Source of the DNA: a virus
Strand: one strand, 5' to 3'
DNA length: 64,000 nucleotides
Virus record (IMG/VR): IMGVR_UViG_3300030012_001430
Coordinates: 1-64,000 of that record
Within the stretch, counting starts at the first letter, position 1. Every line of letters begins with the position of its first letter. The translations under genes were made by a program, and so were the position numbers. The notes below the pieces were generated by a model that did not search any database, was not told where the DNA came from, and worked only from the letters and a program-made list of their open reading frames with translations. Of this stretch, positions 657-15,932 are shown piece by piece.

Positions 657-951
657 ATTCAATAGGCTCATCTACCCTCACTTCCATTATTTCTTCGTAG
701 GCTTTTTCACAAGCCCCACAATCAACTAAAATGACAAACCACTTTAGTCCATTCTCTTCTTTCACTCCTGCCTCATAAGCAAAGGAGTGGCTACCACATT
801 CCCTGCAACCTTCTTTTATTCGTTGCATGACATGATGGTTTACGATTTCATCATCTGTTGTATGTTCAGGCTTGTTCATTTGAACCTTCAACATACAGAC
901 AGAACACAGAGATGCCTCTGTTTCTCTGAGATTGCATCTCGGACATAGCAT
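640..951 (-). CDS. Double zinc-ribbon protein
   Basis: A 103-residue protein with two zinc-binding knuckle pairs: CPRC at residues 3-6 with CSVC at 16-19, and CREC near 49-52 with CGAC near 79-82. The tail is acidic. No catalytic motif is visible. Two ribbons in a small early viral protein suggest nucleic-acid or protein binding, for example a transcription cofactor, but the sequence gives no specific role. It overlaps the downstream clamp-loader-like gene by 17 bases and abuts the upstream gene by one base (951), typical of this translationally coupled operon. Confidence 0.75.
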   Translation of the reverse strand: MLCPRCNLRETEASLCSVCMLKVQMNKPEHTTDDEIVNHHVMQRIKEGCRECGSHSFAYEAGVKEENGLKWFVILVDCGACEKAYEEIMEVRVDEPIEYAESE

Positions 952-1346
952 CAGACAAGCCCCTTCATCTTGAGTATCTTCTCAAGTCCTTCGGCTCTCA
1001 GATGTTCTTTCTCTGTTATCATTCTGAGAGACTTGTTGAATGTCTCCCAATCATTGTTTGTGATTAGTTTGCTGTCCATCATCTCTACCAGTCTAGTTAG
1101 GTTGTCCAGCCCACTGATTACCAGTATTGGTTTTGGTCTACCACTATGTTCCTTGTCCTTGTAGTTGGACTCGATTTCATGTTGTAGTAGTGAACGGTTG
1201 ATACCCCAAAGGAACGTATCTTTACCTCGTATGCAAACTCTTAGTCTGACACGATAGCCTAACTTTGACTTACTACTGTTAACAATATTAACTTCAGGAT
1301 TACCAATGGAAATAAGGATACCATTCAATACATCCTTACCATACAT
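951..1346 (-). CDS. Unknown early protein, 131 residues
   Basis: I do not recognise a family. The N-terminal half is beta-rich (GYRVRLRVCIRGKDTFLWG) and the C-terminal half is helical and charged (NDWETFNKSLRMITEKEHL). The stop shares a base with the start region of the next zinc-ribbon gene, and it sits about 20 bases downstream of the DNA ligase stop. Its position between ligase and clamp-loader-like genes suggests a DNA-metabolism accessory role, by context only. Confidence 0.65.
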   Translation of the reverse strand: MYGKDVLNGILISIGNPEVNIVNSSKSKLGYRVRLRVCIRGKDTFLWGINRSLLQHEIESNYKDKEHSGRPKPILVISGLDNLTRLVEMMDSKLITNNDWETFNKSLRMITEKEHLRAEGLEKILKMKGLV

Positions 1347-1367
1347 GATACTCCGAGATAGTTAGAG

Positions 1368-2900
1368 TCAATATATGTTGCTACACTGTTCTACTACGTC
1401 CTCGATAGTATTGCAATCACTAGGATACTTGTCATCTCTTATTCTGAGTATTCTTGGAAACCTCATACCATAAGTGCCATCCTGATTCTGACTGATTAAA
1501 TCACAAGTAACCTCAAGGACTATTCTAGGCAAGAAATGATACGTCCCACCATTGAAACTGTCAACTATTCGCTTCAATTGATTATCCAGTGAATACATCT
1601 CTTCCTCTGATATACCACTACCAACCTTTCCGATGTCCACATAATCTGAGCCATCTCTAACGCTAACCCCGTATGTGCCTATCACACCTGCTCTCTTTCC
1701 CTTGCCATATTCACCTGATGTTATCACAACATCTAGTTCAACTCTCGGTGGTTTATACTTCAACAGGGAGTCAGTTCTCTTTGACTGATAAGGAGCATTC
1801 AAGTCCTTTATCATCACCCCTTCAAAGCCGCCGTTGATTGCCACATTATATGCAGCATCCACATTGCCATGCCTGAATGTCTGAGTCACAAACTCAGATG
1901 GCACGATAGTCTCTAGATACTCTAGCCTATCTCCATATGTATCACTAAGAATAGATTGACCTTGATACAACAGACAGTCAAACACTACTAACTTAACAGG
2001 ACACTGCGATATGGCCTGTTGCTTATCCTTTGAATGCACTCTCGTTGCAAGAGCCTGATGTGGAGCAGGACTACCATCTCTTGTTATTGGATAGATTTCA
2101 GTATCCAAGATGAAGTCATTGGCCTCCCACTCATTGACTATCGCTACGATGTCTGCGTATTGCTCTGTGACAATCTTACCCTTCCGATTGAAGATGATAA
2201 CATCACCATCCTTACCGTGTATCTGATAGCGATTACCATCATACTTCACATCCATTATGAAACTCTCAGGTAGTTTACCCAAGTATTTCTTGGCAAGCAT
2301 AGGCTTAACGAAGTTACCATGCACCAGTTCAGGTGGTTCTAGGTCATTCTCTAGATAGTCTACAAGACTCGTTAATGAATGACTTATCGTATACATCTTC
2401 ATGTCACGTTGGTAGTAGTCTCCCATTGCCTTCTCCACTGTGCTTTTGTTAACTCCGTTTCTAGGAGTTCTCAACCAATATCGGATAAACCACTTTATCT
2501 CTAAGGCAGACATCTGTGCTACTGCTTCTCGTATTACCGAGTAGTTACCATCTTTATTTAGTGATGAACAGTTTAATTCCAACAACCTCACTATGTCTGA
2601 TAGATTGAACGTGGAGTCAGGTCTGTTCGCACTAACAAACTCCTTCATTCCTTCTCCTAAGTCCATCCAAGTGTGGGCTGAATCTGCAATCTCATCTTCA
2701 AAGACATCGAACATATTAGCAAGCCACTTTACGGCTTTCTTCTCACCAATGTTGTTCTTCTCATAGTCCATTGATAGAATCTTAATTGCTGACTTCTTAT
2801 CTTTGAAGTGCGGTAAAGTCGCACAAATCATATGTCTTTTTTCTGATGGTGTTCTATCTTCTAGTGCTTCACACATCCTGCTGAATCGTATCATTGTCAT
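1368..2900 (-). CDS. lig: ATP-dependent DNA ligase (early cluster)
   Basis: This joins nicks in duplex DNA through an enzyme-AMP intermediate. The nucleotidyltransferase motifs are clear: motif I VKYDGNRYQIH with the adenylated lysine near residue 219, motif III LDTEIY, motif IV GFEGVMIKD and motif V LLKYKP. An N-terminal helical DNA-binding domain (about residues 1-200) and a C-terminal OB domain complete the archaeal/viral ligase layout; at 510 residues it is slightly shorter than host archaeal ligases (about 560-600). The ATG at 2900 is preferred over a TTG at 2915 because AGAGGA lies six bases upstream of it. It overlaps the PC4-like gene by about 30 bases. A second ligase-like gene occurs at 40979-43543. 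Confidence 0.93.
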   Translation of the reverse strand: MTMIRFSRMCEALEDRTPSEKRHMICATLPHFKDKKSAIKILSMDYEKNNIGEKKAVKWLANMFDVFEDEIADSAHTWMDLGEGMKEFVSANRPDSTFNLSDIVRLLELNCSSLNKDGNYSVIREAVAQMSALEIKWFIRYWLRTPRNGVNKSTVEKAMGDYYQRDMKMYTISHSLTSLVDYLENDLEPPELVHGNFVKPMLAKKYLGKLPESFIMDVKYDGNRYQIHGKDGDVIIFNRKGKIVTEQYADIVAIVNEWEANDFILDTEIYPITRDGSPAPHQALATRVHSKDKQQAISQCPVKLVVFDCLLYQGQSILSDTYGDRLEYLETIVPSEFVTQTFRHGNVDAAYNVAINGGFEGVMIKDLNAPYQSKRTDSLLKYKPPRVELDVVITSGEYGKGKRAGVIGTYGVSVRDGSDYVDIGKVGSGISEEEMYSLDNQLKRIVDSFNGGTYHFLPRIVLEVTCDLISQNQDGTYGMRFPRILRIRDDKYPSDCNTIEDVVEQCSNIY

Positions 2901-3114
2901 TTTTATTCCTCTCAATTATCTTATTCAATGCCTTAGCGACATCTTTCATTTCTTTCATATTCATTCTAACGCCTTTCTTTGTTGGTGTTCCGTTAGCATA
3001 CCAACGAATGTCAACGATGTCAACATTCCAATAATTACCCGTTCTCACTGTTAGTTCTTCATTCCCATTTCTTGGGACTCTCACTACTATCTTTTCATCC
3101 TTCAAGCCAACCAC
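2869..3114 (-). CDS. PC4-like single-stranded DNA-binding coactivator
   Basis: An 81-residue protein resembling the C-terminal domain of transcriptional coactivator PC4 (p15): a curved sheet (EELTVRTGNYWNVDIVDIR), the characteristic VDIRWYANGTPTKKGV segment, then one long helix (MNMKEMKDVAKALNKIIER). PC4 domains dimerise, bind single-stranded DNA, and help open promoters or stabilise replication intermediates. The first codon could be GTG 3114 or TTG 3105. In the same operon as a viral TFB, it could help redirect host RNA polymerase; a replication role beside the ligase is equally possible. Confidence 0.72.
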   Translation of the reverse strand: MVGLKDEKIVVRVPRNGNEELTVRTGNYWNVDIVDIRWYANGTPTKKGVRMNMKEMKDVAKALNKIIERNKNDNDTIQQDV

Positions 3115-3493
3115 CCTTAAACTGCTGCAAGTTCTTCCACGATTTGAAGTATCGTGGAGACTCCTGCTCGTCTACTCTGTGTGCTACCCATACAACGCCA
3201 CCGAGACTACTAATCTTAACTAACTCATATGTTCTTCCTTCTACCTCAAACATGTCTTCTGTTTGAACATCGGGAACTAAACCGAACTTCTGTGATAGTT
3301 CGTTAGCAACCTCATCCATATGTTCAGCAATATACTGAACAATAAGATGGCGTTGTATTGGGACTTTAGCATCAACTGTGACTTTGATTTTACCTTCCAT
3401 GTCACATACCCTGCACTTGTTGCCTTCGCAGATTGGGCATGGTATCTCCGCAGGAAGCGGAGCAGGAAAGCGAATAGTCACAGCCTTCTTCAT
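3095..3493 (-). CDS. DnaJ-type zinc-motif protein
   Basis: A 132-residue protein with a compact cysteine cluster CPICEGNKCRVCDMEGK near residues 19-35, of the CxxCxGxxCxxC type found in DnaJ zinc fingers and in many phage small proteins. The remainder is a helical stretch and a C-terminal beta-rich part ending KGGWLEG. The ATG at 3493 is chosen because it overlaps the upstream stop as ATGA; the longer frame would start inside the neighbour. Function unknown; it may be a protein or nucleic-acid binding module. Confidence 0.7.
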   Translation of the reverse strand: MKKAVTIRFPAPLPAEIPCPICEGNKCRVCDMEGKIKVTVDAKVPIQRHLIVQYIAEHMDEVANELSQKFGLVPDVQTEDMFEVEGRTYELVKISSLGGVVWVAHRVDEQESPRYFKSWKNLQQFKGGWLEG

Positions 3494-3972
3494 TCTCTGC
3501 CATCCCACACTCTGTAAACCACTTCATACTCAACTGTAACATCGAATGGGAAGGCTGCAAAGTGTAGGGTAGCATTACCGAACTCAGGAGCAAAACCACT
3601 TGACCAATAGTTACCACCTTGGACTAGGTAGCCCTGCATGTTTACCCAACTGTAATTGTTGAATATCACTGAGTTGTTTATTACCTCAAAGGAGAGGTGT
3701 GTGATGTTATACTTGAACGACTGAAGTTCAATCGCTCCATAACTTGTATTCACATCCAACCAAATAGTCGGTGCGTGAATCAGAGTCTCGTTCGTGGTGT
3801 TATCCATAACAAGAGTAAAGTCACCAGTTAATGTCGTCCATTCTTCATCACTAACCTCACCCTCAAACTCTTCAGATGGAGGGTCAGGCAATGCTTCGGT
3901 GCATCCTGCTAGGAAAGCACCTACTATCATAAGCGTCAATAGTTTGTTCATGCTGTTCGTCATCGCAATCAT
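3490..3972 (-). CDS. Membrane lipoprotein with many N-glycosylation sequons
   Basis: The N-terminus (MNKLLTLMIVGAFLAGCTE from the ATG at 3951) is a lipoprotein signal with lipobox LAGC, so the mature protein would be lipid-anchored at its cysteine on the outer face of the cell membrane. The 130-residue ectodomain is acidic, beta-rich, and has seven N-x-S/T sequons, fitting archaeal surface glycosylation. A TATA-like TATTTATC lies about 24 bases upstream of the 3972 ATG, so the gene may have its own promoter. In a virus such a protein could alter the host surface, for example to block superinfection, but that is inference. Confidence 0.72.
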   Translation of the reverse strand: MIAMTNSMNKLLTLMIVGAFLAGCTEALPDPPSEEFEGEVSDEEWTTLTGDFTLVMDNTTNETLIHAPTIWLDVNTSYGAIELQSFKYNITHLSFEVINNSVIFNNYSWVNMQGYLVQGGNYWSSGFAPEFGNATLHFAAFPFDVTVEYEVVYRVWDGRE

Positions 3973-4012
3973 CCTCTCGCAAGTACAGGAAGGATAAATA
4001 TGTTGCTACATC

Positions 4013-4099
4013 CTATTGAAAGACGAATCCGAACTCTTCTAGAGTCGTCTGTCTCTCTCCAAATGTAAAACCGAACTCACTTAATTTAGTCTGTCTCAT
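4013..4099 (-). CDS. 28-residue micropeptide with two tandem PIP-box-like motifs
   Basis: A small gene starting at ATG 4099, overlapping the upstream stop as ATGA and preceded by GGAGG. The peptide is nearly a tandem duplication: RQTKLSEFGFTF followed by RQTTLEEFGFVF. Each unit fits Q-x-x-L-x-x-F, the core of the PCNA-interacting peptide, though the second adjacent aromatic is replaced by G-F. PCNA is the archaeal sliding clamp. A free double PIP peptide could recruit or block the clamp, similar in logic to the small PCNA inhibitor of Thermococcales. Binding is inferred from the motif alone. Confidence 0.6.
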   Translation of the reverse strand: MRQTKLSEFGFTFGERQTTLEEFGFVFQ

Positions 4100-4230
4100 T
4101 CCTCATCCTCCATCATTTCTGTAAATGCCAAACCAGTTAGCATCCTCGTCTGTATCTCAAGCAACTTGATTATGTCATCTAGTTTTCTCTCGACTGCTCT
4201 CTCATGTCTTTCGTATCTTCCGTTCTTCAT
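4096..4230 (-). CDS. Small helical protein, 44 residues
   Basis: Starts at ATG 4230, overlapping the upstream stop (ATGA), and ends in an ATGA overlap with the PIP-like micropeptide. The sequence is charged and helical, with a heptad-like stretch AVERKLDDIIKLLEIQTRML, then an acidic tail MMEDEE. It is probably a small coiled coil. The double overlap makes it a real translated gene; no function can be assigned. Confidence 0.6.
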   Translation of the reverse strand: MKNGRYERHERAVERKLDDIIKLLEIQTRMLTGLAFTEMMEDEE

Positions 4231-4457
4231 TCTTTCACCACCGACTTAGGGAAGAATACATCCTCCCAAACAACCATCTCTGCTTCTGTCATAATAGTAG
4301 TGAAGATTGTTCCACTCTTCAAGTGTATCTCAACATCATAAACAGACCTCTTCAACATACCCTGTGGCGTTTCTACCACAGAGTATGCTGATACGTCTGC
4401 CATGTTTAATGTCGTCATTCCTGATTCTGTCGTCAATTTGTAATATTTATCTCTCAT
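4227..4457 (-). CDS. Unknown small protein, 76 residues
   Basis: A beta-rich small protein (KYYKLTTESGMTTLNM, VYDVEIHLKSGTIFTTI) followed by a short helix, without recognisable catalytic residues. It overlaps both neighbours by four bases, so it is co-translated. The pattern of alternating polar strands resembles small PH-like or Sm-like folds common in phage early regions, but I cannot place it in a family. Confidence 0.6.
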   Translation of the reverse strand: MRDKYYKLTTESGMTTLNMADVSAYSVVETPQGMLKRSVYDVEIHLKSGTIFTTIMTEAEMVVWEDVFFPKSVVKE

Positions 4458-5212
4458 TCATTATCCTCCTGTTGTCTTAATCTGTCTAGACTCTGTTGAG
4501 TCCATGCTGTTGTTAGTTCTCCGTCCTTCGTGAAAATCAAGTTACTTTCAGGACCGCCATTGTTTATCCTACGGTTCGTTCTTTGCACCTTTGAATCATC
4601 GATGCAGTCTAGACAATACGGTTTGTTAGCAAGTCTCCTTCTGTTAGGAGCATAGCAACACGCTGAACGGTGATGCTCATGTGGTGTTCCCTTCCTACCT
4701 TTCTTGACATAGTTATCACTCCAAAGAACCCACTCGTTAGGTTGAATCTTCCACTTACCCCAATACTCATAGTGGGTATTCTCCTCTTGTAGAAGATAGA
4801 GTGAGCCATCCACATGTCTCTTGACAAAGAAATCTGTGTCGAGACCATTTGTTAGTATCTTCACTACTGTTCCTTCCACTGATTCCCTCACTTTCTTGTT
4901 CTTGAAGCGTTGTTCAGCAGATACAGGAATATGAACAATCTCCGTCTTACCACCTGCTCGTATCTCATGTCTAACAGGCATTTTACTGTCCTTCTTCTTC
5001 TTACTTGATTTGAGTTTCTTGTTCTCCTTTGGATTCACCGTTGATACAACTTCAGACTTGAGTAACTGAACATTATCAGTGATGGCATCTACACCAACAC
5101 CTGACATCACATCGTATTCTTGATGCTTACCAAGCAGGAACACTCTCTCAATGTCGTTGCAGTTGATGAGTTTATCATCACCAGTTTTCATTTCAAATGC
5201 CCAATACTTCAT
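4454..5212 (-). CDS. Unknown protein with basic linker and zinc-like cluster
   Basis: A 252-residue protein. The N-terminal 60 residues resemble the small beta protein downstream (a strand-rich KYWAFEMKTGDDKLINC start). A lysine/serine linker (residues about 65-78) follows, then a beta-rich domain and a C-terminal part with HEHHRSACCYA and YCLDC that may bind zinc. No family recognised. It overlaps neighbours at both ends by four bases. The basic linker suggests nucleic-acid contact. Confidence 0.6.
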   Translation of the reverse strand: MKYWAFEMKTGDDKLINCNDIERVFLLGKHQEYDVMSGVGVDAITDNVQLLKSEVVSTVNPKENKKLKSSKKKKDSKMPVRHEIRAGGKTEIVHIPVSAEQRFKNKKVRESVEGTVVKILTNGLDTDFFVKRHVDGSLYLLQEENTHYEYWGKWKIQPNEWVLWSDNYVKKGRKGTPHEHHRSACCYAPNRRRLANKPYCLDCIDDSKVQRTNRRINNGGPESNLIFTKDGELTTAWTQQSLDRLRQQEDNE

Positions 5213-5547
5213 TCATCTTCACCTCCCCAATATGGGTCTAATCTGTCGTTAGGTATCATGTCCCAACTATTCTTCATTGAATCCTCAAAGGATACAGTCT
5301 CTGTGAAGTCAGGATTCTTCAATAGAAGGAGAGGCTCATGCCAATCTCCATCCTCTTGTGCTTGTCTTATTGCCTCATGCATTTGTTCTGCTTTGTCATC
5401 AGGTAGTTCAACCCAATACACCAAAGCATGTCTCTGCCTGTTCAGACTCGCTCTCATTGTAAGAGTCATAGGTGCAGAACCCATTCCTTCGCATTCCATG
5501 AATGTCTCTAAACCGTGAGCATCTGCTATTCCACAATAAGTCTTCAT
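5209..5547 (-). CDS. Unknown acidic protein, 112 residues
   Basis: An acidic soluble protein with one likely helix (DDKAEQMHEAIRQAQEDGDW) and a C-terminal tail rich in Asp/Glu. No motif recognised. It starts at ATG 5547, overlapping the stop of the ribbon-helix-helix gene upstream, and ends in a four-base overlap with the next gene. I considered an E2-like conjugating role because of the nearby E1 and JAMM genes, but no E2 signature is visible. Confidence 0.6.
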   Translation of the reverse strand: MKTYCGIADAHGLETFMECEGMGSAPMTLTMRASLNRQRHALVYWVELPDDKAEQMHEAIRQAQEDGDWHEPLLLLKNPDFTETVSFEDSMKNSWDMIPNDRLDPYWGGEDE

Positions 5548-5687
5548 CGATAATCCTCCCTGAATTGTGTCTCTAGTATTCCAACTACTATGAGATATTC
5601 AACAGTTTCATCGAATGACATGTTCATCTTCTTCATCACAGACTCAATGAAATCCATCTGCTTCTCTGTTACTCTTATCATAGTCAT
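5544..5687 (-). CDS. Ribbon-helix-helix type regulator, 47 residues
   Basis: A small frame with the layout of CopG/Arc-family DNA-binding proteins: a short strand (MTMIRVTEKQ), helix 1 (MDFIESVMKKMN), a turn starting with Ser, then helix 2 (FDETVEYLIVVGI). Such proteins bind operators as dimers. The ATG at 5687 overlaps the JAMM gene stop, and the TGA at 5546-5544 overlaps the next ATG. Its target may be one of the palindromic sites in this virus; that is inference. Confidence 0.55.
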   Translation of the reverse strand: MTMIRVTEKQMDFIESVMKKMNMSFDETVEYLIVVGILETQFREDYR

Positions 5688-6253
5688 TCTTCTTCACCAT
5701 CCAAAGAGATTTTGCTTCCGATTACTTCCTCTGCTGTTTTTACCCATTCAGGCTTCTCAACAGGCTCTTGCTTGTAAATACCATACTGGACTTTCTTCGC
5801 TATCTCGCTATTACAATCATAGGAGATGAACTGGTTATCACCAAGAACCGTTGCACTCTCCATCATTCCCTTCCATGACTTGATTGTTTTCCAATCAGTG
5901 CCACTGAAGAATGCTCGACCAAACGGATGTGTGTGTATCCAACACTTCAATGGTGTCTTCATTCCATCCAGTTGTTCACCTTGGTTCTTAAAACTCACAA
6001 AGCCAAACGTCCCTACACTGATATACAAGTCATCCTTTGCATCTACTAACACCTGAACTTCTCTAGGTGAGTCGAAGGCTTCTAGTGACTTATTCCAAAT
6101 CACTGTGAAGAATGCCTCGGTCTGTGGGTCAGGAAATGGATACTTGAACTCTATTGCATTAAATACAGTTCTGATATCCTCCTGCCAATTCTCATCTTTT
6201 ATTTCCAATCCTTCTATCGTTCCATTTTCATATTCTGTTTCATCTGTTTTCAT
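5684..6253 (-). CDS. JAMM/MPN metalloprotease (ubiquitin-like isopeptidase type)
   Basis: A 189-residue JAB/MPN-fold protein. The zinc motif is intact: H107-T-H109, then seven residues, S117-G-T-D120 (HTHPFGRAFFSGTD), the JAMM signature H-x-H-x7-S-x-x-D. JAMM enzymes cleave isopeptide or peptide bonds after the C-terminal Gly-Gly of ubiquitin-like proteins, or release sulfur-carrier adducts. There is no NlpC/P60 domain, so it is unlike the lambda tail protein K, and it lies in the early operon, not with tail genes. With the E1-like protein (7358-7951) and the GG-ending Ubl (12515-12721) it would complete a modifier cycle. The metal-activating glutamate should lie in the N-terminal half (E65 is a candidate). 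Confidence 0.88.
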   Translation of the reverse strand: MKTDETEYENGTIEGLEIKDENWQEDIRTVFNAIEFKYPFPDPQTEAFFTVIWNKSLEAFDSPREVQVLVDAKDDLYISVGTFGFVSFKNQGEQLDGMKTPLKCWIHTHPFGRAFFSGTDWKTIKSWKGMMESATVLGDNQFISYDCNSEIAKKVQYGIYKQEPVEKPEWVKTAEEVIGSKISLDGEEE

Positions 6254-6255
6254 TT

Positions 6256-6498
6256 TTATATTCCTCCCATTTGTTCTACTCTCAGGTCTTGCTCGTTCTC
6301 AAACTCATGGTATGCTCTGTGTCCTGCTATGAACCCACCAGCATGTCTCTTTGTTCCTAAGAACTCCTCACCACAAACAGGACAAACAACCTTCACAATC
6401 ATTGCCTGTTTGTAGTATCCATCTGTTGATATTATTGTCAACATATGTCCTATGTCGTCTTCGCTTATGTCGTCTATATTTGCATCTTCCTTTGTCAT
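6256..6498 (-). CDS. C2H2-like zinc-finger protein ending in Gly-Gly-Ile
   Basis: An 80-residue protein with an acidic N-terminus, a beta strand segment (YKQAMIVKVV) and a zinc finger CPVCGEEFLGTKRH...H...H at residues about 39-64. The C-terminus reads EQMGGI. A di-glycine one residue before the end is what an immature ubiquitin-like modifier has, and the JAMM gene starts three bases after this stop. The zinc finger, not a beta-grasp fold, dominates the sequence, so I treat the GG as suggestive only. It probably binds nucleic acid. Confidence 0.65.
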   Translation of the reverse strand: MTKEDANIDDISEDDIGHMLTIISTDGYYKQAMIVKVVCPVCGEEFLGTKRHAGGFIAGHRAYHEFENEQDLRVEQMGGI

Positions 6499-6794
6499 GC
6501 TTTCACCTTCATATAATGTCGAAGTGATTTGATTGGTCTCGGTGGAGACAATCGAGGTTCTTCGACAACAACCTCTATTTTCTTCTTCAACTTCTCTGCT
6601 AGTTTGTCTTTCTCTTTTACACTAACACCATGCTTCTTGATGTAAGGTAGCAATGTGTTTCTTCTGTACTCTTCCTTCCACATCACCTGTATGCAGTCAT
6701 GGCACAATCTACCGTTCTTCGCCTGTTCCTCAGAAGGCTCTTGATACTCAGCACCACATAGGGTCTTGTCTAGGATTTGAAAATGTATAATCAC
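6495..6794 (-). CDS. Zinc-knuckle protein, GTG start
   Basis: A 99-residue protein with LCGAEY and LCHDC (a probable CxxxxxxC...CxxC zinc site) and a very basic C-terminal half (EKDKLAEKLKKKIE), ending RHYMKVKA. The GTG at 6794 is chosen because it overlaps the upstream stop as GTGA and has GGAGGAGG just before it; a longer frame from 6821 would begin inside the neighbour. The pattern resembles the CGxxxxx...CxxC phage cofactor-like proteins. Function unknown. Confidence 0.65.
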   Translation of the reverse strand: MIIHFQILDKTLCGAEYQEPSEEQAKNGRLCHDCIQVMWKEEYRRNTLLPYIKKHGVSVKEKDKLAEKLKKKIEVVVEEPRLSPPRPIKSLRHYMKVKA

Positions 6795-6970
6795 TCTTCC
6801 TCCTCCTTTGGTGGTATCCAACTTTTATCAGTTAGAACTTTCAATCTTAGTTGGTTTGTGGTAAGACCATACTTGAGTTGATTATGTATCCACTCACTTC
6901 TATTGGTTAGATTCTCCCACTTTTCCATGTCTTCTGCTCTTACATACACATTGAATCTCTTACCCCTCAT
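6791..6970 (-). CDS. Ribbon-helix-helix-like protein, 59 residues
   Basis: The N-terminus RFNVYVRAEDMEKWENL then NRSEWIHNQL fits a ribbon-helix-helix DNA-binding domain, with the N-S/T-x-W-I turn seen in phage CopG-like proteins. An acidic tail follows. ATG 6970 overlaps the upstream gene, and TGA 6793-6791 overlaps the downstream GTG. Too small for the usual gene length cut-off but well supported by the coupled overlaps. Confidence 0.6.
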   Translation of the reverse strand: MRGKRFNVYVRAEDMEKWENLTNRSEWIHNQLKYGLTTNQLRLKVLTDKSWIPPKEEEE

Positions 6971-7197
6971 TCTTCCTTCTCCCTGTACGCTGGATGTGTC
7001 TTCGGCAACCTGTGCAGTCTTCTTACAATCATGTTGTTCACTAGATTGGATACTGAGTCAGCACCATCTGCAAATCTCTTAGTTGCAACATCATCCCCTG
7101 AAGGACACATCCTCTCTTCTAATTCTGTTAAGTCTATTTTATCCATTATATATCTCAATACTTCATATTCAACGTGTATCTTTGAACTCGCTCTCAT
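6967..7197 (-). CDS. Unknown small helical protein, 76 residues
   Basis: A mostly helical, charged protein (MRASSKIHVEYEVLRYIM, VSNLVNNMIVRRL) without a recognised motif. It overlaps neighbours by four bases on each side. The first 20 residues could form a strand followed by helix, as in antitoxin-like or RHH dimers, but this is weak. Confidence 0.55.
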   Translation of the reverse strand: MRASSKIHVEYEVLRYIMDKIDLTELEERMCPSGDDVATKRFADGADSVSNLVNNMIVRRLHRLPKTHPAYREKEE

Positions 7198-7361
7198 TTA
7201 TCTTCACCTCTACATTTTTTACATGATAGATTCTGCATACATCTACCACAAATCAAAGTTGCTTCCTTAAGTGGAAGAGGTACTCCTGCACTACTCGCTT
7301 CACCTAGAAAGGTCTCAAGTGGATAGTGACAGGAACACTCTTCACAATCACATTCTTTCAT
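7194..7361 (-). CDS. Cysteine-rich zinc protein, 55 residues
   Basis: Starts at ATG 7361, which overlaps the E1-like stop as ATGA; longer frames run inside the E1 gene and are rejected. Cysteines are arranged CDCEECSC near the N-terminus and CGRC, CKKC near the C-terminus, giving two probable zinc sites. Translational coupling to the E1-like enzyme makes it a candidate partner of that enzyme, but no known E1 accessory protein matches. Confidence 0.65.
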   Translation of the reverse strand: MKECDCEECSCHYPLETFLGEASSAGVPLPLKEATLICGRCMQNLSCKKCRGEDK

Positions 7362-7951
7362 ATGTTCAACACCATCATGTCTTTGACATCGTTGTTGTCG
7401 TTGAACCACTTCTGTATCCATTGTGCTGCTGTTGCAGCAATTACAATATTCATGCAATCAATATCTCTAGCAGTGCCATCCCAAGATTGTGCCTGACATG
7501 AAAATGACCCTTCAGCACCTTCTCCAAGACTTTTCATCGAGGGGTCAGCGAGATAAGAAAGCAATAGGGCATTTCGACCCTGCGCCCGTAAATCTAGCCA
7601 CTTCAACTTAGCATCTGCACCAAACCCCTGCTGATACAATAAACGCCTCACAGCAAGGTTATCTGCACAGCAAACCACCAAGTTGTAGCCCTGTAACTGC
7701 TTTGCTGTTAGAACCTTGAAAGGCTCATCGTTAACTGTGCCACGAAAGGATGTGTCCCATATCCTGTCTGCTAGAACACCTGCTTTGTTCTCTCCTATAT
7801 CACTAACAGTGAAGTTCTGATATCCGATGTTCTTCCTCTCAACACCATCATCATCAAACACTGTTATTCTATATCCTAGTCTTTGGAGGAATTGTGTTAG
7901 GAAACTACCAATTCCACCTGCTCCAATTATCATTATTCTTCTATTCATCAT
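7358..7951 (-). CDS. E1-like ThiF/MoeB/UBA adenylating enzyme
   Basis: A 197-residue Rossmann protein. Key features: GAGGIG at residues 10-15 (nucleotide loop), acidic DDD at 33-35, N41 and Q45 of the E-R-x-N-x-x-x-Q segment, K56, and the adenylation aspartate in CCADN (D97). These are the ATP-binding elements of ThiF, MoeB and ubiquitin E1 enzymes, which adenylate the C-terminal glycine of a ubiquitin-like protein. Candidate catalytic cysteines lie in GSFSCQA and DIDCMN in the C-terminal third. The protein is shorter than MoeB (about 250). ATG 7951 is chosen: GGTGAT precedes it. The substrate is probably the GG-ending Ubl at 12515-12721. Confidence 0.85.
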   Translation of the reverse strand: MMNRRIMIIGAGGIGSFLTQFLQRLGYRITVFDDDGVERKNIGYQNFTVSDIGENKAGVLADRIWDTSFRGTVNDEPFKVLTAKQLQGYNLVVCCADNLAVRRLLYQQGFGADAKLKWLDLRAQGRNALLLSYLADPSMKSLGEGAEGSFSCQAQSWDGTARDIDCMNIVIAATAAQWIQKWFNDNNDVKDMMVLNI

Positions 7952-8183
7952 TTTTATCACCTATATCTATTACATTGTTGTCTATCTGTTGTTGTTGATA
8001 GTGATGCCATGCATCTACTATCTCGTTTGTTATTCCATCCATTGTCGCACCGACAACGCTGATTGCGTCTTCTAACACAGTTCTTCTGACAACGTTCTTC
8101 AACTGTGGTAGATTCTCATACTCTTCAATGAACTTACTGAAGTGGTATTGCATTCTCTTTAATGTCTCAATCAGTTCTTCCAT
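7941..8183 (-). CDS. Small helical protein, 80 residues
   Basis: The protein from ATG 8183 is almost wholly helical (MEELIETLKRMQYHFSKFIE) and ends in a Gln/Asp/Asn-rich tail. The start lies just after the TFB stop (8185), whereas the longer frame overlaps TFB and is rejected. The tail overlaps the E1-like gene start region and carries its GGTGAT ribosome binding site. No function recognised. Confidence 0.6.
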   Translation of the reverse strand: MEELIETLKRMQYHFSKFIEEYENLPQLKNVVRRTVLEDAISVVGATMDGITNEIVDAWHHYQQQQIDNNVIDIGDKNDE

Positions 8184-8184
8184 C

Positions 8185-9087
8185 TTAATACGCTCCTGAT
8201 GTGAAATCAGACACAGATAGGCTGTATAGGTCTTCTTTCGATAGACCAAACATATTCTGCATCTCTCTCACCTGTTCTCTCAACCCCATTGCTGATGTTG
8301 TGTTACCCGAAGCCTTCACTAGACTTTCTTGAGTTACTCTGTATTTTCTCTGCATTCTTCCTGCAACCCACAATCCAGCAACAACCTTGTTCGGTGAGAA
8401 TCTCAAATGCTGCTCTTGATAGAAAGTCTCCAAGAACTGAATCATGCTCATCGCTTCCATTCGATATCCTGTGGGCATCTCATCCAACCTATCCAAGATG
8501 GATGATGCCATAGTCATCGCATTCTCCTGTGTGAAGACATACGACTTTCTGAAATGCCTCGCTACTCTCTTACCCCAACGTGAGATATACTTCCTCTCAA
8601 CCATCGAGTATCTACTATGCTCTCTTATGTTCATAGGCACTTTACTTTCCTTCAATATGAAGAAGGTCAAGGCTGCTGCTCTATGTTCGACAGAAGCACC
8701 TCTGAACACATGCTCGTTATTGAGCGAACGAAGATACTCCTCTACCTTCTTCTTGATAGAGGAACTAACTTGATAGTTAGATAGAATCATCTGAGACAAA
8801 ACAATAGTTCTGTTATCTGCCTCAGATAATGCAGAGGCATACATGTTGTGCTTCTTCATCCTAACCATCTGATTGTGATTGTAGTTGGATTTGGTCTCCA
8901 TGATTAGAGAACCCAACCTGTTTGTCGGTTCGTGTGTATGATTACCATCCTTTAGTATTGATGTGGTTTCCTCAAACGGTCTGATGACCTGAACCAAACC
9001 ACAACTGTTGCATACGTTCTCACCCAATACATCATCGAAGAAACTATCATGTTCACCACATTCGGGACAAGCCATGACTATCTCCAT
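8185..9087 (-). CDS. tfb: Archaeal transcription initiation factor B (TFB)
   Basis: TFB bridges the TATA-binding protein and RNA polymerase at archaeal promoters. The protein is full length (300 residues). The N-terminal zinc ribbon is CPECG (near residue 7) and CNSCG (near 27), followed by a B-finger-like linker and two cyclin-fold repeats from about residue 100; SEADNRTIVLSQMILSN and the KVVAGLWVAGRM segment are typical. The 9087 ATG has GGAGG upstream; ATG 9075 is an alternative. A viral TFB could redirect host polymerase to viral promoters, together with the PC4-like protein. Confidence 0.92.
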   Translation of the reverse strand: MEIVMACPECGEHDSFFDDVLGENVCNSCGLVQVIRPFEETTSILKDGNHTHEPTNRLGSLIMETKSNYNHNQMVRMKKHNMYASALSEADNRTIVLSQMILSNYQVSSSIKKKVEEYLRSLNNEHVFRGASVEHRAAALTFFILKESKVPMNIREHSRYSMVERKYISRWGKRVARHFRKSYVFTQENAMTMASSILDRLDEMPTGYRMEAMSMIQFLETFYQEQHLRFSPNKVVAGLWVAGRMQRKYRVTQESLVKASGNTTSAMGLREQVREMQNMFGLSKEDLYSLSVSDFTSGAY

Positions 9088-10316
9088 GTTATGTCCTCCG
9101 TAAACCTAGCAGCACTTAACTTTGCAACGGGTATTCTGAAGTTCGTTTTCTTAACATCAGATAGAGTCCTGACAGCCTTCACAGCCACAGTATCATTGAA
9201 GACAAGTGTTGCTCTCGTTGATATTTGGTCTCCAACCACATTCTTTCCATTGACATCATCGACACAGAACGGTCCTTGAACATCAGTAAGAGAGTTGAAG
9301 AATACCAACTTACATCTCTGAGTTCCTGATTGGTTGTTATTAGGATAACACAACCAATCTCCTAACTGACCTTTGATATGCATAGCAAAATGGTACTTTT
9401 GTGATTTCCCTTCTAGTTTTAGATTGGAAAAAGGTGCTTTTCTCAAATCAACCAGTGTATATTGGGATTTCTTATCCATGTCTTGCAACAAGGTGAACGC
9501 TCTCTCTTCCACAATCCAATCAGTTCTGTTCTGCATCAACCATGCTTTCATCAAACTCTCTTCAGATTCACTGGCATGAGTGCCAAACATATTGAACCAC
9601 AGATTAGAAGGACTAATGTTAGCCCATTTCTTTGACCTGTTTGCCTTGTTCCTGTAACAATCAATGAATGTATTCGCTTCATCGATAGGTAGTGAACCCC
9701 AAATGTTCTTGGATATCTCAAATGCTACTTCATCCCTGCTGATTAGATTGGTGTTAATCTTAACATTGTATTGAGTGCCTTCAGAGAATAACCAATACGG
9801 CGACCTGTTCTGCAATGCATACAGTATGTTTGCTGAATAAGTAACGTTCCTATCGATATATGCATCCATTGCCTCTGCACATCTAGTCATCGAACCATAG
9901 CCGATAATCTTAGCAAGAGCCATACAGACATCGACTTGATTCTTCTTTACACCATTCATGAAGATGGTGCTACCAGTCTTTCTCAGTATGACTGAAGACT
10001 CACCATTTGGATATCGGAATGTTATCCATGTTCTCTCATCTGATTTGCTGTTAGGAGTAGTCCTAACGAATATATCATACATGTTCTTCGCAAATACATT
10101 CCAATAAGTGTTCTCATGGAACTTCTTCTTCGTTAAGTCTCTGCTAGTAAGTCTGATGAATACTTCACCAAACCTGTTAGTTCCCCTGTTAGTGAGCAAG
10201 TGATGATACCTGTTCGTCTTACAAAGGAATGAACTGGTAGCGTTATCTCTTTCTCTATCGCTTCTTATTCTTGGTAGTTCCATTTTTATTTTCATTTTCA
10301 TCACCATTTCTTTCAT
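9078..10316 (-). CDS. Unknown 412-residue early protein
   Basis: A large soluble protein without any motif I can name. It is rich in Asn, Lys and aromatic residues (NTYWNVFAKNMYDIFV, SPYWLFSEGTQYNVKI). Size and position between TFB and ribonucleotide reductase suggest an early nucleic-acid or host-takeover role. Several in-frame ATGs (10316, 10295, 10283) are possible starts; GGTGAT lies before 10295. It overlaps the next gene and TFB slightly. Confidence 0.7.
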   Translation of the reverse strand: MKEMVMKMKIKMELPRIRSDRERDNATSSFLCKTNRYHHLLTNRGTNRFGEVFIRLTSRDLTKKKFHENTYWNVFAKNMYDIFVRTTPNSKSDERTWITFRYPNGESSVILRKTGSTIFMNGVKKNQVDVCMALAKIIGYGSMTRCAEAMDAYIDRNVTYSANILYALQNRSPYWLFSEGTQYNVKINTNLISRDEVAFEISKNIWGSLPIDEANTFIDCYRNKANRSKKWANISPSNLWFNMFGTHASESEESLMKAWLMQNRTDWIVEERAFTLLQDMDKKSQYTLVDLRKAPFSNLKLEGKSQKYHFAMHIKGQLGDWLCYPNNNQSGTQRCKLVFFNSLTDVQGPFCVDDVNGKNVVGDQISTRATLVFNDTVAVKAVRTLSDVKKTNFRIPVAKLSAARFTEDITWR

Positions 10317-10539
10317 AGTATAGTTTCTTATTATACAGGGTATCTAATTCTCCTGTCGATAAATCGGTGTAACCTAACCGAATGTAATATCTTATTCTGT
10401 TGAGAACTAGGGTTGATGGATATTTCCTTCCATCTTCCCTAGTCCTCTTGTATAGATTAGATAGAGACTCCTTAGCACCAGCGTTTGTCATCCTATCGAT
10501 GACCTCGCTTTCTATTGCTAGGACTTGTTCTCTATTCAT
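10255..10539 (-). CDS. Small basic helical protein, 94 residues
   Basis: A charged helical protein (EQVLAIESEVIDRMTNAGA, LSNLYKRTRED) with a very polar Asn/Lys tail. It starts at ATG 10539 overlapping the ribonucleotide reductase stop by four bases. The GYTDLSTGELDTLY segment could be a UBA-like or HTH turn, but no family is recognised. Confidence 0.6.
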   Translation of the reverse strand: MNREQVLAIESEVIDRMTNAGAKESLSNLYKRTREDGRKYPSTLVLNRIRYYIRLGYTDLSTGELDTLYNKKLYYERNGDENENKNGTTKNKKR

Positions 10540-12425
10540 ATCTCACAGACTCCACCTGCACAAGCAAGTTCTCCTTGCAAGTCGGTGTTGTCCTCTAACT
10601 CAACAACTTCAGTCAAATCAATCTCAGTCAGAAGTTTGAGCATAGTTTCGTATTGCTTCTTGCTTATCGGTTCGTGTGGTGCTTGCTTGTAGACACCACC
10701 ATCGAACGGTAGAACAGATAGACCATTGTAGAAGTCTCTGTTCTTCCACATCCAGTTTCTCACATCATCCCATTCATCCTCACGGATGTTGACAGTTGCA
10801 GAAACGTTGTGAGTGTTGACACCTCTGTTGTGTCCTGTTACAACCCAATCAACAGATACTCTCTTCACTCTCTCCAACATCTCCAATGCTGATTCCTCTC
10901 TTGTTATTGAAGTTCCATCAGGAGTCTTCTGTGGTATTGAGATGATTGCCTGATTAGGATTGTGATAGTCATCCTCAACCAAGTCGGGGAACTTCGTTAT
11001 CAGATAGTTGTAGATTGATTCCGTCTTCAACACTCTGATTCTCCTGATGTAGTATTCAGACCACCAAGCGTGAATGCCTGATGATGTTCCCATAACTAGA
11101 CTGGTTGTTCCAGCAGGTTTGACACAAGTGATTCTTGCTGCTGTGTTAATGCCCAACGCATTAGCGAAGAACTCATTCGTGCTTCTTGCTTTGTTAGCAG
11201 CAGACTCCATATCTAAATCTAGAACTCTACCACTTGCTATTCCAGTCATTGATACACCGAGTAGTGCATCTTTCTCAGATGTCTTCTTCCATACTTCTCT
11301 GAGGTAATGGAAGTCAGTGTAGGATGCTTGCAGTGTTCCTAAGAACGTTGCATGTTCTACTCTCTTGTTAAGGTCAGACTGACTACTTACATCTGACACA
11401 TTCACTTCTGTCAAGTTGCAGAACTGATATGGTCGAAGTGCTATCTCACAACAAGGGTTAGTTCCCCAATCCTTATCGTTGCTGAAATAGAATCCGGGTT
11501 CACCTGAACCTGAGTCTTGAACCCTCTTCCATAGATTGTTGAAGAAGTCCCTCTTGATTCTGTGTCGTAGTAGAACTACTGAGTTGTTTGCTCTTGCTCT
11601 CTGTGGGTTCTTCTCCCAAAAGTGTCCTGACTTCGATGTTATCATGTCATCGTCATCAGCACTGAACAAACTGATTAGTGCTGCTCTGCGAATACCACCT
11701 GCTAACACTGCATCTGCGATGTAGCAAACGATATCGTGTGCTTCTAGTGTAGTTAGTTTGTCGCCGTTGTTCTTGTTAGCGAGAATACCCTCGACCTTCA
11801 CTAGACATTCCTTCAGAGGTTGTGGGCCGGGTGCTTTTCCTCCACTGGTTTTCAGTGGGCTTCCCTTTGGCCTGACATCTGAATAGTCGAACCTGACTGT
11901 CGTTGCTCTCTTACCAATATAAGACTCAAACAGAACCTTGACTGCATCTGCCCATCCTTCGATGGAATCAGCAACTAGATGTCTGTAAGTTCTCTTTGGA
12001 TTAGGCAATCTAATCTCAGGCAACTGGTCTACATGATGTCTTTGCACCGAGTAGCCAACGCCTGTTCCTCCTAGTAATAGGAACATTGCCTCTGAAAACG
12101 ACAGGTAATGGTCGATAGGCATGTATGCACAATTGTATACTCTGTTTGGTGAGAGTTCAATCGGCTTACCTGCAAACTGCATCGACCTCATCGAAGGTAG
12201 TATCTTCTTTGGGATAACATAGTTATCATAAGTGTCGTGAATCTTCTCGTAGATTGTTTGTTTTGTTTCTTCGGGTAGGTCTCTCTTTCTGATTGAGTCC
12301 AAATGCATCTGTCTGTTTCTCTGACAAATCTCTTCCCAAGTTTCCTTTCGCTGGTCTGCTTCTTTCCACTTTGCATACTTCATATGCACAGTGATATCTG
12401 ATAGTATCTCTTGTTGTATTTCCAT
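10536..12425 (-). CDS. nrdJ: Class II (adenosylcobalamin-dependent) ribonucleoside-triphosphate reductase
   Basis: This makes deoxynucleotides for viral DNA synthesis. The sequence resembles the monomeric Lactobacillus-type enzyme: YNCAYMPID carries the first active-site cysteine, NPCCEIALRPYQFCNLTEVN holds the thiyl-radical cysteine and its Asn/Glu partners, VKPAGTTSLVMGTSSG is the phosphate-binding region, and the C-terminus CAGGVCEI is the re-reducing cysteine pair. Length is 629 against about 740 residues, so it is a compact form. Being B12-dependent, it needs host or environmental cobalamin but no oxygen. AAGGAGAT precedes the ATG; a terminator hairpin separates it from the Ubl gene upstream. 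Confidence 0.92.
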   Translation of the reverse strand: MEIQQEILSDITVHMKYAKWKEADQRKETWEEICQRNRQMHLDSIRKRDLPEETKQTIYEKIHDTYDNYVIPKKILPSMRSMQFAGKPIELSPNRVYNCAYMPIDHYLSFSEAMFLLLGGTGVGYSVQRHHVDQLPEIRLPNPKRTYRHLVADSIEGWADAVKVLFESYIGKRATTVRFDYSDVRPKGSPLKTSGGKAPGPQPLKECLVKVEGILANKNNGDKLTTLEAHDIVCYIADAVLAGGIRRAALISLFSADDDDMITSKSGHFWEKNPQRARANNSVVLLRHRIKRDFFNNLWKRVQDSGSGEPGFYFSNDKDWGTNPCCEIALRPYQFCNLTEVNVSDVSSQSDLNKRVEHATFLGTLQASYTDFHYLREVWKKTSEKDALLGVSMTGIASGRVLDLDMESAANKARSTNEFFANALGINTAARITCVKPAGTTSLVMGTSSGIHAWWSEYYIRRIRVLKTESIYNYLITKFPDLVEDDYHNPNQAIISIPQKTPDGTSITREESALEMLERVKRVSVDWVVTGHNRGVNTHNVSATVNIREDEWDDVRNWMWKNRDFYNGLSVLPFDGGVYKQAPHEPISKKQYETMLKLLTEIDLTEVVELEDNTDLQGELACAGGVCEI

Positions 12426-12447
12426 AAATTCATCTCCTTATTGAGTT

Positions 12448-12473
12448 AAAAAAAGAAGGGCGTTGCACCCTTC
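12448..12473 (-). terminator. Hairpin plus poly-T terminator between Ubl and ribonucleotide reductase genes
   Basis: On the minus strand a perfect GAAGGG/CCCTTC stem with a seven-base loop is followed directly by seven T residues. It lies after the Ubl gene and before the reductase ribosome binding site. It would limit read-through from the upstream genes, so the reductase probably has its own promoter or receives attenuated transcription. Confidence 0.75.
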
Positions 12474-12514
12474 CGGCAGTCAAACTACTACTGCTAAGAC
12501 TATCTAAAACCGAT

Positions 12515-12721
12515 TTAACAGCCGCCTACGACTTGTTCCATCAGTTTAACTTCATTGACTGAATCCCAGTCAACATCAGGTATTCTTTCCTCGCTGACCA
12601 TTACATCGTCAACTACTACCCAATGTGTCGGATGGTCATTTATCTGCTCCATCAGACCTGCTAGGTTCACTTCCATTTCCGTGTGTCCACTGTCATCTTG
12701 TATTATCAATTTCATTTTCAT
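12515..12721 (-). CDS. ThiS/MoaD-like ubiquitin-fold protein ending in Gly-Gly-Cys
   Basis: A 68-residue protein with the order of a ThiS/MoaD beta-grasp: strand 1 KMKLIIQDDSG, strand 2 TEMEVN, helix LAGLMEQIND, strands HWVVVDDVMVSEERI, then DSVNEVKLMEQVVGGC. ThiS-family proteins end with a strand like DEVEIVxxVxGG, whose terminal glycine is adenylated by an E1-like enzyme. Here GG occupies residues 66-67 and one Cys follows, so a proteolytic step would be needed to expose the glycine, a job suited to the JAMM protease at 5684-6253. GGAGG precedes the start. It may act as a protein modifier (SAMP-like) or a sulfur carrier. Confidence 0.8.
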   Translation of the reverse strand: MKMKLIIQDDSGHTEMEVNLAGLMEQINDHPTHWVVVDDVMVSEERIPDVDWDSVNEVKLMEQVVGGC

Positions 12722-15190: not shown

Positions 15191-15357
15191 TCTTCTTCAA
15201 TTCCGTGTAATGCTAACCACTCACTGTAAGTCGGTTCGCACTGACACAGACAAGGGACAGGTTCTTTCTCCCCATCTGCGGTTTGTAAAACTGCCGTTCC
15301 AGTTCCATCACAAACACTGCAATCTTCCTTTCCTCTCATCACCTTAATTATTCTCAT
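15187..15357 (-). CDS. DnaJ-type zinc miniprotein, 56 residues
   Basis: ATG 15357 overlaps the upstream gene stop as ATGA. Cysteines lie in CSVCDGTG (residues 13-20) and CLCQC (36-40), the half-knuckle style of DnaJ zinc centres. The rest is short and acidic. Such proteins are frequent in tailed-virus early regions; the role is unknown. Confidence 0.6.
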   Translation of the reverse strand: MRIIKVMRGKEDCSVCDGTGTAVLQTADGEKEPVPCLCQCEPTYSEWLALHGIEEE

Positions 15358-15932
15358 ATTAATCCCAACCTCGTTAGCAAGGCATTTGCCTCTTGTTCAT
15401 GTTCAAAGGACTTGTTTAGGTAGTGGTCTCTCGGCCACCACTCCGGTTCTTCTCTCTTAGTCCAAGCAGCGAATCGCCACTTGTCATCGAGATAGTATTG
15501 ACGATACTTCTCGATTGTCGTCATCTCATCAAATCCATCTGCTTTCCTACACTCCATGTGAGGAGAGATAGCAATAGCGAATGGCGTAAGTCCAACATCA
15601 GGAAGAAGACTCTCTGCTTCATCCATCTGTTCTGAATACCTGTTCATCTGAACTTCGACTTGATGAATGCGACCATACCTGTGAGTATACTCCCTGCATA
15701 GTGCATAGGTATGCTCACGCAACCACTGGAAGTTCTGTCTTGTCTCTCTCGCCCAAATAGTAGATGGGTGATTCAACATCACAGGCTTCCAACCTGCTTC
15801 CAAACCAAGATGGTCTAGAATAGTAAACAGCATCTGCAAACTCTCAGTTGGCATCTTGACTACATGCTTGTCCAGCATCATCTTTGCACTCGTTGTTGGG
15901 CTTTCGTCTAAAGTAAATATATTCATTTTCAT
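15354..15932 (-). CDS. Widespread phage family protein (DKHVVKM type), possible DNA repair
   Basis: A 192-residue protein with hallmarks I recognise from marine phages: an N-terminal FTLDESPTTSAKMMLDKHVVKM, then HPSTIWARETRQNFQWLREH, then REYTHRYGRIHQ, then PFAIAISP, then YRQYYLDDKWRFAAW. Members are often annotated as pyrimidine-dimer DNA glycosylase-like, but I am unsure that the activity is established. Conserved H, D and R residues suggest an enzyme. It is the first gene of the long minus-strand operon after a promoter at 16008-16023. Confidence 0.65.
   Translation of the reverse strand: MKMNIFTLDESPTTSAKMMLDKHVVKMPTESLQMLFTILDHLGLEAGWKPVMLNHPSTIWARETRQNFQWLREHTYALCREYTHRYGRIHQVEVQMNRYSEQMDEAESLLPDVGLTPFAIAISPHMECRKADGFDEMTTIEKYRQYYLDDKWRFAAWTKREEPEWWPRDHYLNKSFEHEQEANALLTRLGLI

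Follow-up and report, generated by a model that had tools for sequence, protein, structure and literature searches.

A tailed-virus genome is described here that encodes a ubiquitin-like protein (Ubl), an E1-like adenylyltransferase and a JAMM/MPN+ metalloprotease, and it seems probable that these proteins form a virus-encoded, reversible, SAMP-like conjugation module. The proposal is built on the genes themselves, their folds or families, their intact catalytic residues, the pattern of the Ubl tail and obligatory co-occurrence; enzyme activity, conjugation in preference to sulfur transfer, the role of a linked 412-residue protein, the targets and early timing are inferred from these. The window, that is, the whole stretch of DNA analysed, comprises positions 1 to 64,000 of the 70,155-base IMG/VR virus record IMGVR_UViG_3300030012_001430. 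A sequence-only reading of the window had reported the set, and its three open reading frames do lie on the minus strand where that reading placed them.

Table 1. Features of the Ubl–E1–JAMM block and its neighbours in the window.
Feature	Position	Strand	Evidence or occurrence
JAMM/MPN+ metalloprotease (189 aa; E65, HTHPx6SGTD)	5684..6253	-	AlphaFold2 model, motif
Small (80-aa) zinc-finger protein abutting JAMM	6256..6498	-	39/89 loci
E1-like adenylyltransferase (ThiF superfamily, PRTRC-like branch, 200 aa from GTG)	7358..7960	-	Pfam ThiF
TFB-like transcription initiation factor	8185..9087	-	Zn_Ribbon_TF 2.8e-6 (just below cutoff); 88/89 loci
412-aa protein, always linked; invariant C351 in conserved C-terminal domain	9078..10316	-	89/89 loci
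Adenosylcobalamin-type ribonucleotide reductase (RNR), adjoins Ubl gene, not obligatory	10536..12425	-	PHROG 367 1.6e-131; RTPR 3.2e-84; 63/89 loci
Ubl modifier (beta-grasp, 68 aa, ends VVGGC)	12515..12721	-	AlphaFold2 model, structure matches, Gly-Gly conserved

Viral setting of the gene block

From ~16.9 kb to the window start, genes run leftward and encode the TFB-like protein, the RNR, an ATP-dependent DNA ligase, a UV endonuclease-like protein and others, and the rightward genes from the same point encode terminase, portal, capsid and tail proteins. The strand switch near 17 kb coincides with a switch in skew. The Ubl, E1 and JAMM genes all lie within the leftward, replication/transcription arm, and their presumed early status is read from this position and strand, the arm being shared with TFB, RNR and DNA ligase. 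Two further genes in the window are of note. Positions 15354-15932 (minus strand) encode a pyrimidine dimer glycosylase-like protein (Pfam Pyr_excise, 3.4e-8), likely a DNA repair gene, and a DNA-ligase-like sequence at 40979-43543 (plus strand) lies within the structural gene block, in addition to the ligase at 1368-2915.

The closest named relatives of the window capsid protein belong to the Haloarcula tailed viruses HVTV-1 and HCTV-1. Family B DNA polymerase (PolB) was matched in all but two of 18 related records, in most cases as two separate segments; the window's own 70-kb record, which may be partial, gave no PolB match. ICTV profiles describe Magrovirales as relatives of Druskaviridae that infect marine Poseidoniales, with an HK97 capsid protein near that of Druskaviridae, replication and structural modules in opposite directions, and PolB, one member being described with PolB-NTD and PolB-CTD. 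The capsid relatives, the opposed modules and the PolB of related records fit this description, and the genome may be called magrovirus-like. A megablast of a phage collection with the first 25 kb of the window gave no match.

Conservation and linkage of the set

Direct scans recovered 28 viral relatives with the E1 and seven with the Ubl; profile scans extended this to 250 and 126, and 80 were fetched from each set. When identical E1s were dropped, 89 loci spanning Ubl to JAMM remained, all found through the E1 or the Ubl. Ubl, E1, JAMM and the 412-residue protein are encoded at every one of them, the TFB-like gene at 88 and the RNR at 63, commonly in the order Ubl, (RNR), 412-residue protein, TFB, E1, JAMM. 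The sequence-only reading had pointed to related viruses as a place to look for the triad, and no locus has lost the Gly-Gly, the E1 motifs or the JAMM motif. A second sample was drawn through the terminase and is hence free of the E1/Ubl bias. Among its 23 contigs, each 65 kb or longer, all three genes are carried by 18 and none by five, and partial sets do not occur. The five contigs without the genes (65-77 kb) also lack the 412-residue protein gene, so the whole block is most likely missing there.

Across this sampling, the E1s diverge down to 46% and the JAMMs down to 30% identity to those of the window, and conservation at 89 of 89 distinct loci, together with invariant active-site residues, excludes chance. 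The Ubl–E1–JAMM set can be regarded as part of the core genome of a magrovirus-like archaeal virus family. Furthermore, a very divergent contig, L277, encodes a Ubl that ends at Gly-Gly, an E1, a JAMM and a TFB (hhalign 97, 99.5, 98.5 and 97%, respectively) in a different order, which indicates that the genes stay together at about 30% identity and despite rearrangement. A 654-residue protein of L277 has a Cys motif that weakly matches that of the 412-residue protein (12.7%), and at full length the 412-residue family gave it the top score among 31 operon families. No relatives of the L277 E1 were found among viral contigs.

The Ubl and its Gly-Gly tail

An AlphaFold2 model of the Ubl, built with 18 viral homologues, has the beta-grasp fold anticipated by the sequence-only reading (beta-beta-alpha-beta-beta-helix-beta; pLDDT 84, pTM 0.63). 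VIA-align gave Z-scores of 6.1 to MoaD (3rpf), 5.1 to TtuB and 4.8 to bacterial and Caldiarchaeum Ubls, rows within 1 of each other counting as tied. The list of matches, which also includes SUMO, ubiquitin and UFM1, is almost wholly beta-grasp. Foldseek probabilities reached 0.99 with E-values no better than 0.0097; single structure scores are thus modest (VIA Z 5-6), as expected for a length of 68 residues. By sequence, the Ubl has no significant match. Profile searches with the three families that the sequence-only reading had named gave unequal results: ThiF was matched above its cutoff by the window E1; Prok-JAB was matched below cutoff by the window JAMM (0.0059) and by 21 of 21 members of the JAMM alignment (best 2e-4); and ThiS was matched by only 3 of 19 Ubl members, with a best E-value of 0.071, below cutoff.

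Gly-Gly is present in the window Ubl and in all 88 distinct relatives, followed by zero to three residues. A tail of one to three residues is carried by 78 of the 88, and the other 10 stop exactly at Gly-Gly. Across the family, 12 different codon pairs are used for the Gly-Gly, and no start codon closely follows it in the downstream stretches inspected; the motif is thus maintained for its role in the protein and not as a ribosome-binding site. The tails themselves vary widely (Y, C, Q, NQ, RF, L, SL, CY, none and many others). The special role that had been given to the terminal Cys of the window Ubl was accordingly rejected, and this Cys is regarded as one variant of a short, putatively removable tail, with no particular function of its own.

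The JAMM protease

The window JAMM contains the sequence HTHPFGRAFFSGTD. Its AlphaFold2 model (pLDDT 80), like that of the Ubl, found matches of its family fold: VIA-align gave Z 8.7 to Pyrococcus JAMM1 (PfJAMM1, 5ld9; rmsd 3.2 over 108 residues), 7.5 to Caldiarchaeum Rpn11 and 7-8 to Rpn11 and AMSH, with Cap3 and BubCD also among the matches. RadC, which has the same fold, scores 8.3. Residues E65, H107, H109, S117 and D120 (a Glu plus the motif H[ST]HPx6SxxD) are invariant in 110 of 110 JAMMs.

Processing of the Ubl tail by the JAMM, as the sequence-only reading had proposed, agrees with the short tails of most relatives. It does not account for all of them, because the JAMM and its catalytic residues are intact also at the loci whose Ubl already exposes Gly-Gly, and the protease is therefore not kept for maturation alone. 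This pattern points to a second job for the JAMM, which would most simply be the removal of the Ubl from its partners.

The E1-like enzyme

The window E1 matches Pfam ThiF with an E-value of 1.3e-17 (64.2 bits against a gathering score of 28.1) and contains the motifs GAGGIGS, DDD, N44, K59 and CCADN. The sequence-only reading had named these motifs, with N41 and K56 for the two single residues; its start at 7951 is an in-frame ATG three codons after the GTG, which accounts for the shift in numbering. The best NCBIfam model, PRTRC_ThiF, was matched at 4.2e-16, which at 59 bits lies under the TIGR03736 cutoff of 144.75. ThiF and MoeB models were also matched in this type of scan, and the model of the UbaA group was matched with 38 bits against a cutoff of 450. 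Among PDB profiles, Cap2 was the top match, accompanied by MoeB, UBA1, Uba4 and UBA5, and among PADLOC models E1-E2 (8e-13) was matched more strongly than BilD (8.9e-5).

In an alignment of 108 E1s, the nucleotide-binding glycines and residues D36, D38, N44, Q48, K59, D100, N101 and R105 are invariant or nearly so. Residue C155 is invariant in 108 of 108. When MoeB and ThiF of E. coli and cellular E1s of Methanoperedens are added to the alignment, it coincides with MoeB C187, the catalytic cysteine of that enzyme, and with the ThiF counterpart. The ATP-site Arg of the NxxRQ motif (R73 in MoeB) is present in MoeB, ThiF and cellular archaeal E1s, whereas 99% of the viral E1s have Tyr at this position; the nearest relatives have Phe (L277) or Tyr (E1s of Methanoperedens elements). 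Owing to this substitution, adenylation by the viral E1 is a predicted activity.

In a phylogenetic tree, the viral clade, together with the Methanoperedens-element and L277 E1s, split from MoeB, ThiF and cellular archaeal E1s at 100/100. The viral clade fell near PRTRC and phage E1s; support for the archaeal group was 90/74, and L277 formed a long branch. Correspondingly, hhalign aligned the viral E1 with PRTRC E1s at 99.3% over the full length, with the SC residues placed on SC. The viral E1s form an archaeal-virus clade of their own, closest to PRTRC-type E1s and not to MoeB or UbaA.

The 412-residue protein and other neighbours

No E2 or E3 was recognised, and Pfam scans of the operon gave no match to a PRTRC-B/E2_D partner. 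The sequence-only reading had likewise seen no E2 or E3, although it missed the universally linked 412-residue protein and its one invariant Cys. In 37 aligned sequences, this Cys is the only invariant one, and the conserved C-terminal domain reads GPICIDN...GDQ and GDQxxxRAxxLxND. The protein has no Pfam or PDB match, and none to the Prok-E2_D profile, a kind of relation that is hard to see in sequence. By eye, GPICIDN resembles the E2 active site GxICLDIL. Assignment as an E2 is nevertheless unsupported: hhalign to an E2 profile gave P=0.028, a score surpassed by two unrelated operon families. The comparison is a weak one, as a known positive (E2_D against E2) reached only 9.7%. Constant presence and the single invariant Cys make the 412-residue protein the best candidate partner of the set.

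The TFB-like protein also matched the TFIIB model PRK00423 (3.6e-9), far under the cutoff of that model. The zinc-finger protein was considered as a second Gly-Gly modifier, given that 42 of 47 such proteins have Gly-Gly within their last residues, 41 of them as Gly-Gly plus one residue. This candidate was rejected: in 28 of 41 cases the Gly-Gly is encoded by GGAGGA right before the next start codon, and the best account of the ending is a Shine-Dalgarno site that lies in frame. The case is a caution for searches that rely on a terminal Gly-Gly motif. Other Gly-Gly-ended families in the loci were also set aside, being 61 scattered genes (~3% of genes), several of which end in GGEEE and are compatible with the same artefact.

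Proposed function and alternative explanations

In the proposed cycle, the JAMM would trim the tail of one to three residues from the Ubl to expose Gly-Gly, and the E1 would adenylate the Gly-Gly carboxylate and probably load the Ubl onto Cys155. Lysines on target proteins would then receive the activated Ubl, whether without an intermediary, the route proposed for archaeal UbaA/SAMP, or with the help of the 412-residue protein, and the JAMM would take it off again. The targets may include host transcription or defence proteins, as the constant linkage to TFB suggests, so that infection would reprogramme the cell. In Haloferax, the SAMP system marks a transcription factor, TBP2, for degradation (PMC4895103), which, with the steady company of TFB, makes the transcription machinery a reasonable first guess; TFB linkage may perhaps reflect a mere shared transcription unit. 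Taken together, the set points to protein tagging by these viruses in the course of infection. A bolder version, which is considered unlikely, holds that the virus runs a full cascade of its own, in which the 412-residue protein, alongside Ubl, E1 and JAMM, is a novel transfer enzyme that works through its Cys. Components of the host transcription machinery, for example TBP or TFB, would be tagged and thereby inactivated or destroyed by the proteasome, and the viral TFB would take control. The lack of a recognisable E2 or E3 counts against such a self-sufficient cascade; if it were true, the virus would switch the transcription programme of its host by a ubiquitin-like system of its own.

The same genes could instead serve sulfur transfer, with the E1 activating the Ubl, a host sulfurtransferase making its thiocarboxylate, the sulfur passing to viral or host tRNA, nucleotides or a cofactor, and the JAMM freeing Gly-Gly or releasing Cys in the manner of mycobacterial Mec+. 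This is judged to be somewhat unlikely, even though the Ubl fold is ThiS/MoaD-like with MoaD as its best (tied) structural match, the E1 matches ThiF and MoeB models, and Ubls of this topology also carry sulfur, for which the host could supply the enzymes. Rhodanese and PP-loop thiolase were both detected in control genomes, and neither was found in 19 viral records (that of the window and 18 relatives). The split of the E1 from MoeB, ThiF and cellular archaeal E1s has full support, the JAMM is retained where Gly-Gly is already exposed, and classical thiamine and Moco operons are without JAB proteins (PMC1779556). Iyer et al. 2006 argued for, and predicted, Ub-type transfer by JAB-linked E1s without rhodanese (PMC1779556). 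Conjugation is favoured because the JAMM is kept without a need for maturation, the E1 cysteine is invariant, the E1 belongs to a JAB-associated branch, and neither sulfur enzyme was found.

The presence of an E1, which tail modules do not need, argues against processing during virion assembly in the manner of lambda tail proteins I and K (Ubl and JAB-NlpC/P60). Phage Ubl and JAB genes do classically sit in tail modules (PMC1779556), but those of the window share the replication/transcription arm, and its strand, with TFB and RNR, opposite to the tail genes, and have no NlpC/P60 fusion; the sequence-only reading had likewise called them early and dissociated from NlpC/P60. An assembly role is highly improbable. 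To a similar degree, it is hard to credit that the E1 and JAMM are decayed proteins retained as non-catalytic scaffolds; the E1 is without the ATP-site Arg, but its other catalytic residues never vary among 108 E1s, which share as little as 46% identity with that of the window, nor do those of the JAMM among 110 sequences, for which the lowest identity is 30%. Bacterial E1/E2/JAB systems serve antiviral defence, and the viral E1 matches defence models (PADLOC E1-E2, more weakly BilD). The virus might flood or mimic a host Ubl pathway, namely a SAMP-like or Bil/CBASS-like antiviral conjugation, with the JAMM stripping host-made tags. An own Ubl and an active-looking E1, as a full set in every genome, exceed what such counter-defence would need, and this explanation is distinctly doubtful.

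Relation to known systems

PRTRC plasmid systems, presumably operon type 6d of Iyer et al. 2006, comprise an E1, a JAB protein, the Ubl-like PRTRC-C and the E2-like PRTRC-B and, as in the viral set, no rhodanese. PRTRC-like sets also occur in large phages (Bacillus KLEB27-3, crAss-like cr126_1), in which the E1 adjoins a JAB-motif protein. The PRTRC and phage enzymes are the closest relatives of the viral E1, and their JAB protein has a similar AFFSGTD motif. However, the two PRTRC-C Ubls examined end in a single Gly (GTKG) and not in Gly-Gly plus a tail, and the viral set is tied to TFB, has no detected PRTRC-B/E2_D and has Tyr in place of the ATP-site Arg.

The archaeal SAMP/UbaA/HvJAMM1 system shares with the viral set a Gly-Gly-ended Ubl, one E1, one JAMM, no obvious E2 and the archaeal setting, but the viral E1 lies outside the UbaA group, in a clade apart from cellular archaeal E1s, and the viral Ubl carries a tail to trim. 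The bacterial Bil, CBASS Cap2/Cap3 and Bub operons follow the same logic of Ubl, E1 and JAMM, and Cap2 is the nearest of them in the PDB search; they differ in having an E2 domain and in belonging to bacterial defence or other operons, whereas the viral set is a core block of archaeal viruses. In the sulfur-carrier sets QbsE/QbsD and CysO/Mec+, a JAMM processes the Ubl C-terminal end, but no metabolic or sulfur-transfer enzymes were recognised near the viral genes. Lambda tail proteins I and K are also a viral Ubl and JAB pair, but belong to a tail module, with NlpC/P60 and no E1.

Prokaryotic Ubl/E1/JAB operons are therefore already known. As far as checked, the novelty lies in the viral form: marine archaeal viruses have the set as a core block, its Ubl bearing a tail after Gly-Gly, its E1 falling in a separate clade and a TFB accompanying it. 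The open literature yielded no paper linking magroviruses with ubiquitin, and one magrovirus paper did not name these genes, although single genes may have been mentioned earlier. Eukaryote-infecting viruses hijack ubiquitin; in the accessible literature, no virus lineage was met whose core genes include a modifier, an E1 and a JAMM of its own. If it conjugates, the module would amount to a minimal Ubl system that exists naturally outside cells, in viruses presumed to infect some of the most abundant marine archaea, and would show whether an E1 and a JAMM, with or without the 412-residue protein, suffice. Its parts are small and easily expressed, which makes the question directly testable.

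Related genes in cellular genome bins

Two loci of Ca. Methanoperedens encode a virus-like E1 between a 712- or 718-residue protein and a 166-residue protein ending in KGKGG. A full triad was rejected for these loci, which have the E1 homologue but no JAMM motif anywhere in their 20 kb, and the KGKGG protein has no match to the Ubl profile. Motifs like those of the 412-residue protein were seen by eye in Methanoperedens proteins adjoining the E1. A UQ_con search of Methanoperedens genomes gave no match, the controls being likewise silent.

The compact set of L277 (654-residue protein, Ubl, E1, JAMM and TFB; positions 743-5987) lies on a marine MAG contig that is labelled Acidiferrobacter and is probably misbinned archaeal-virus DNA. 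Similarly, contigs binned as Altibacter (L273) and Maricaulis (L274) carry E1 and JAMM-motif genes of the present virus group, L273 also with a Ubl, and are likely misbinned viral contigs within GTDB genomes.
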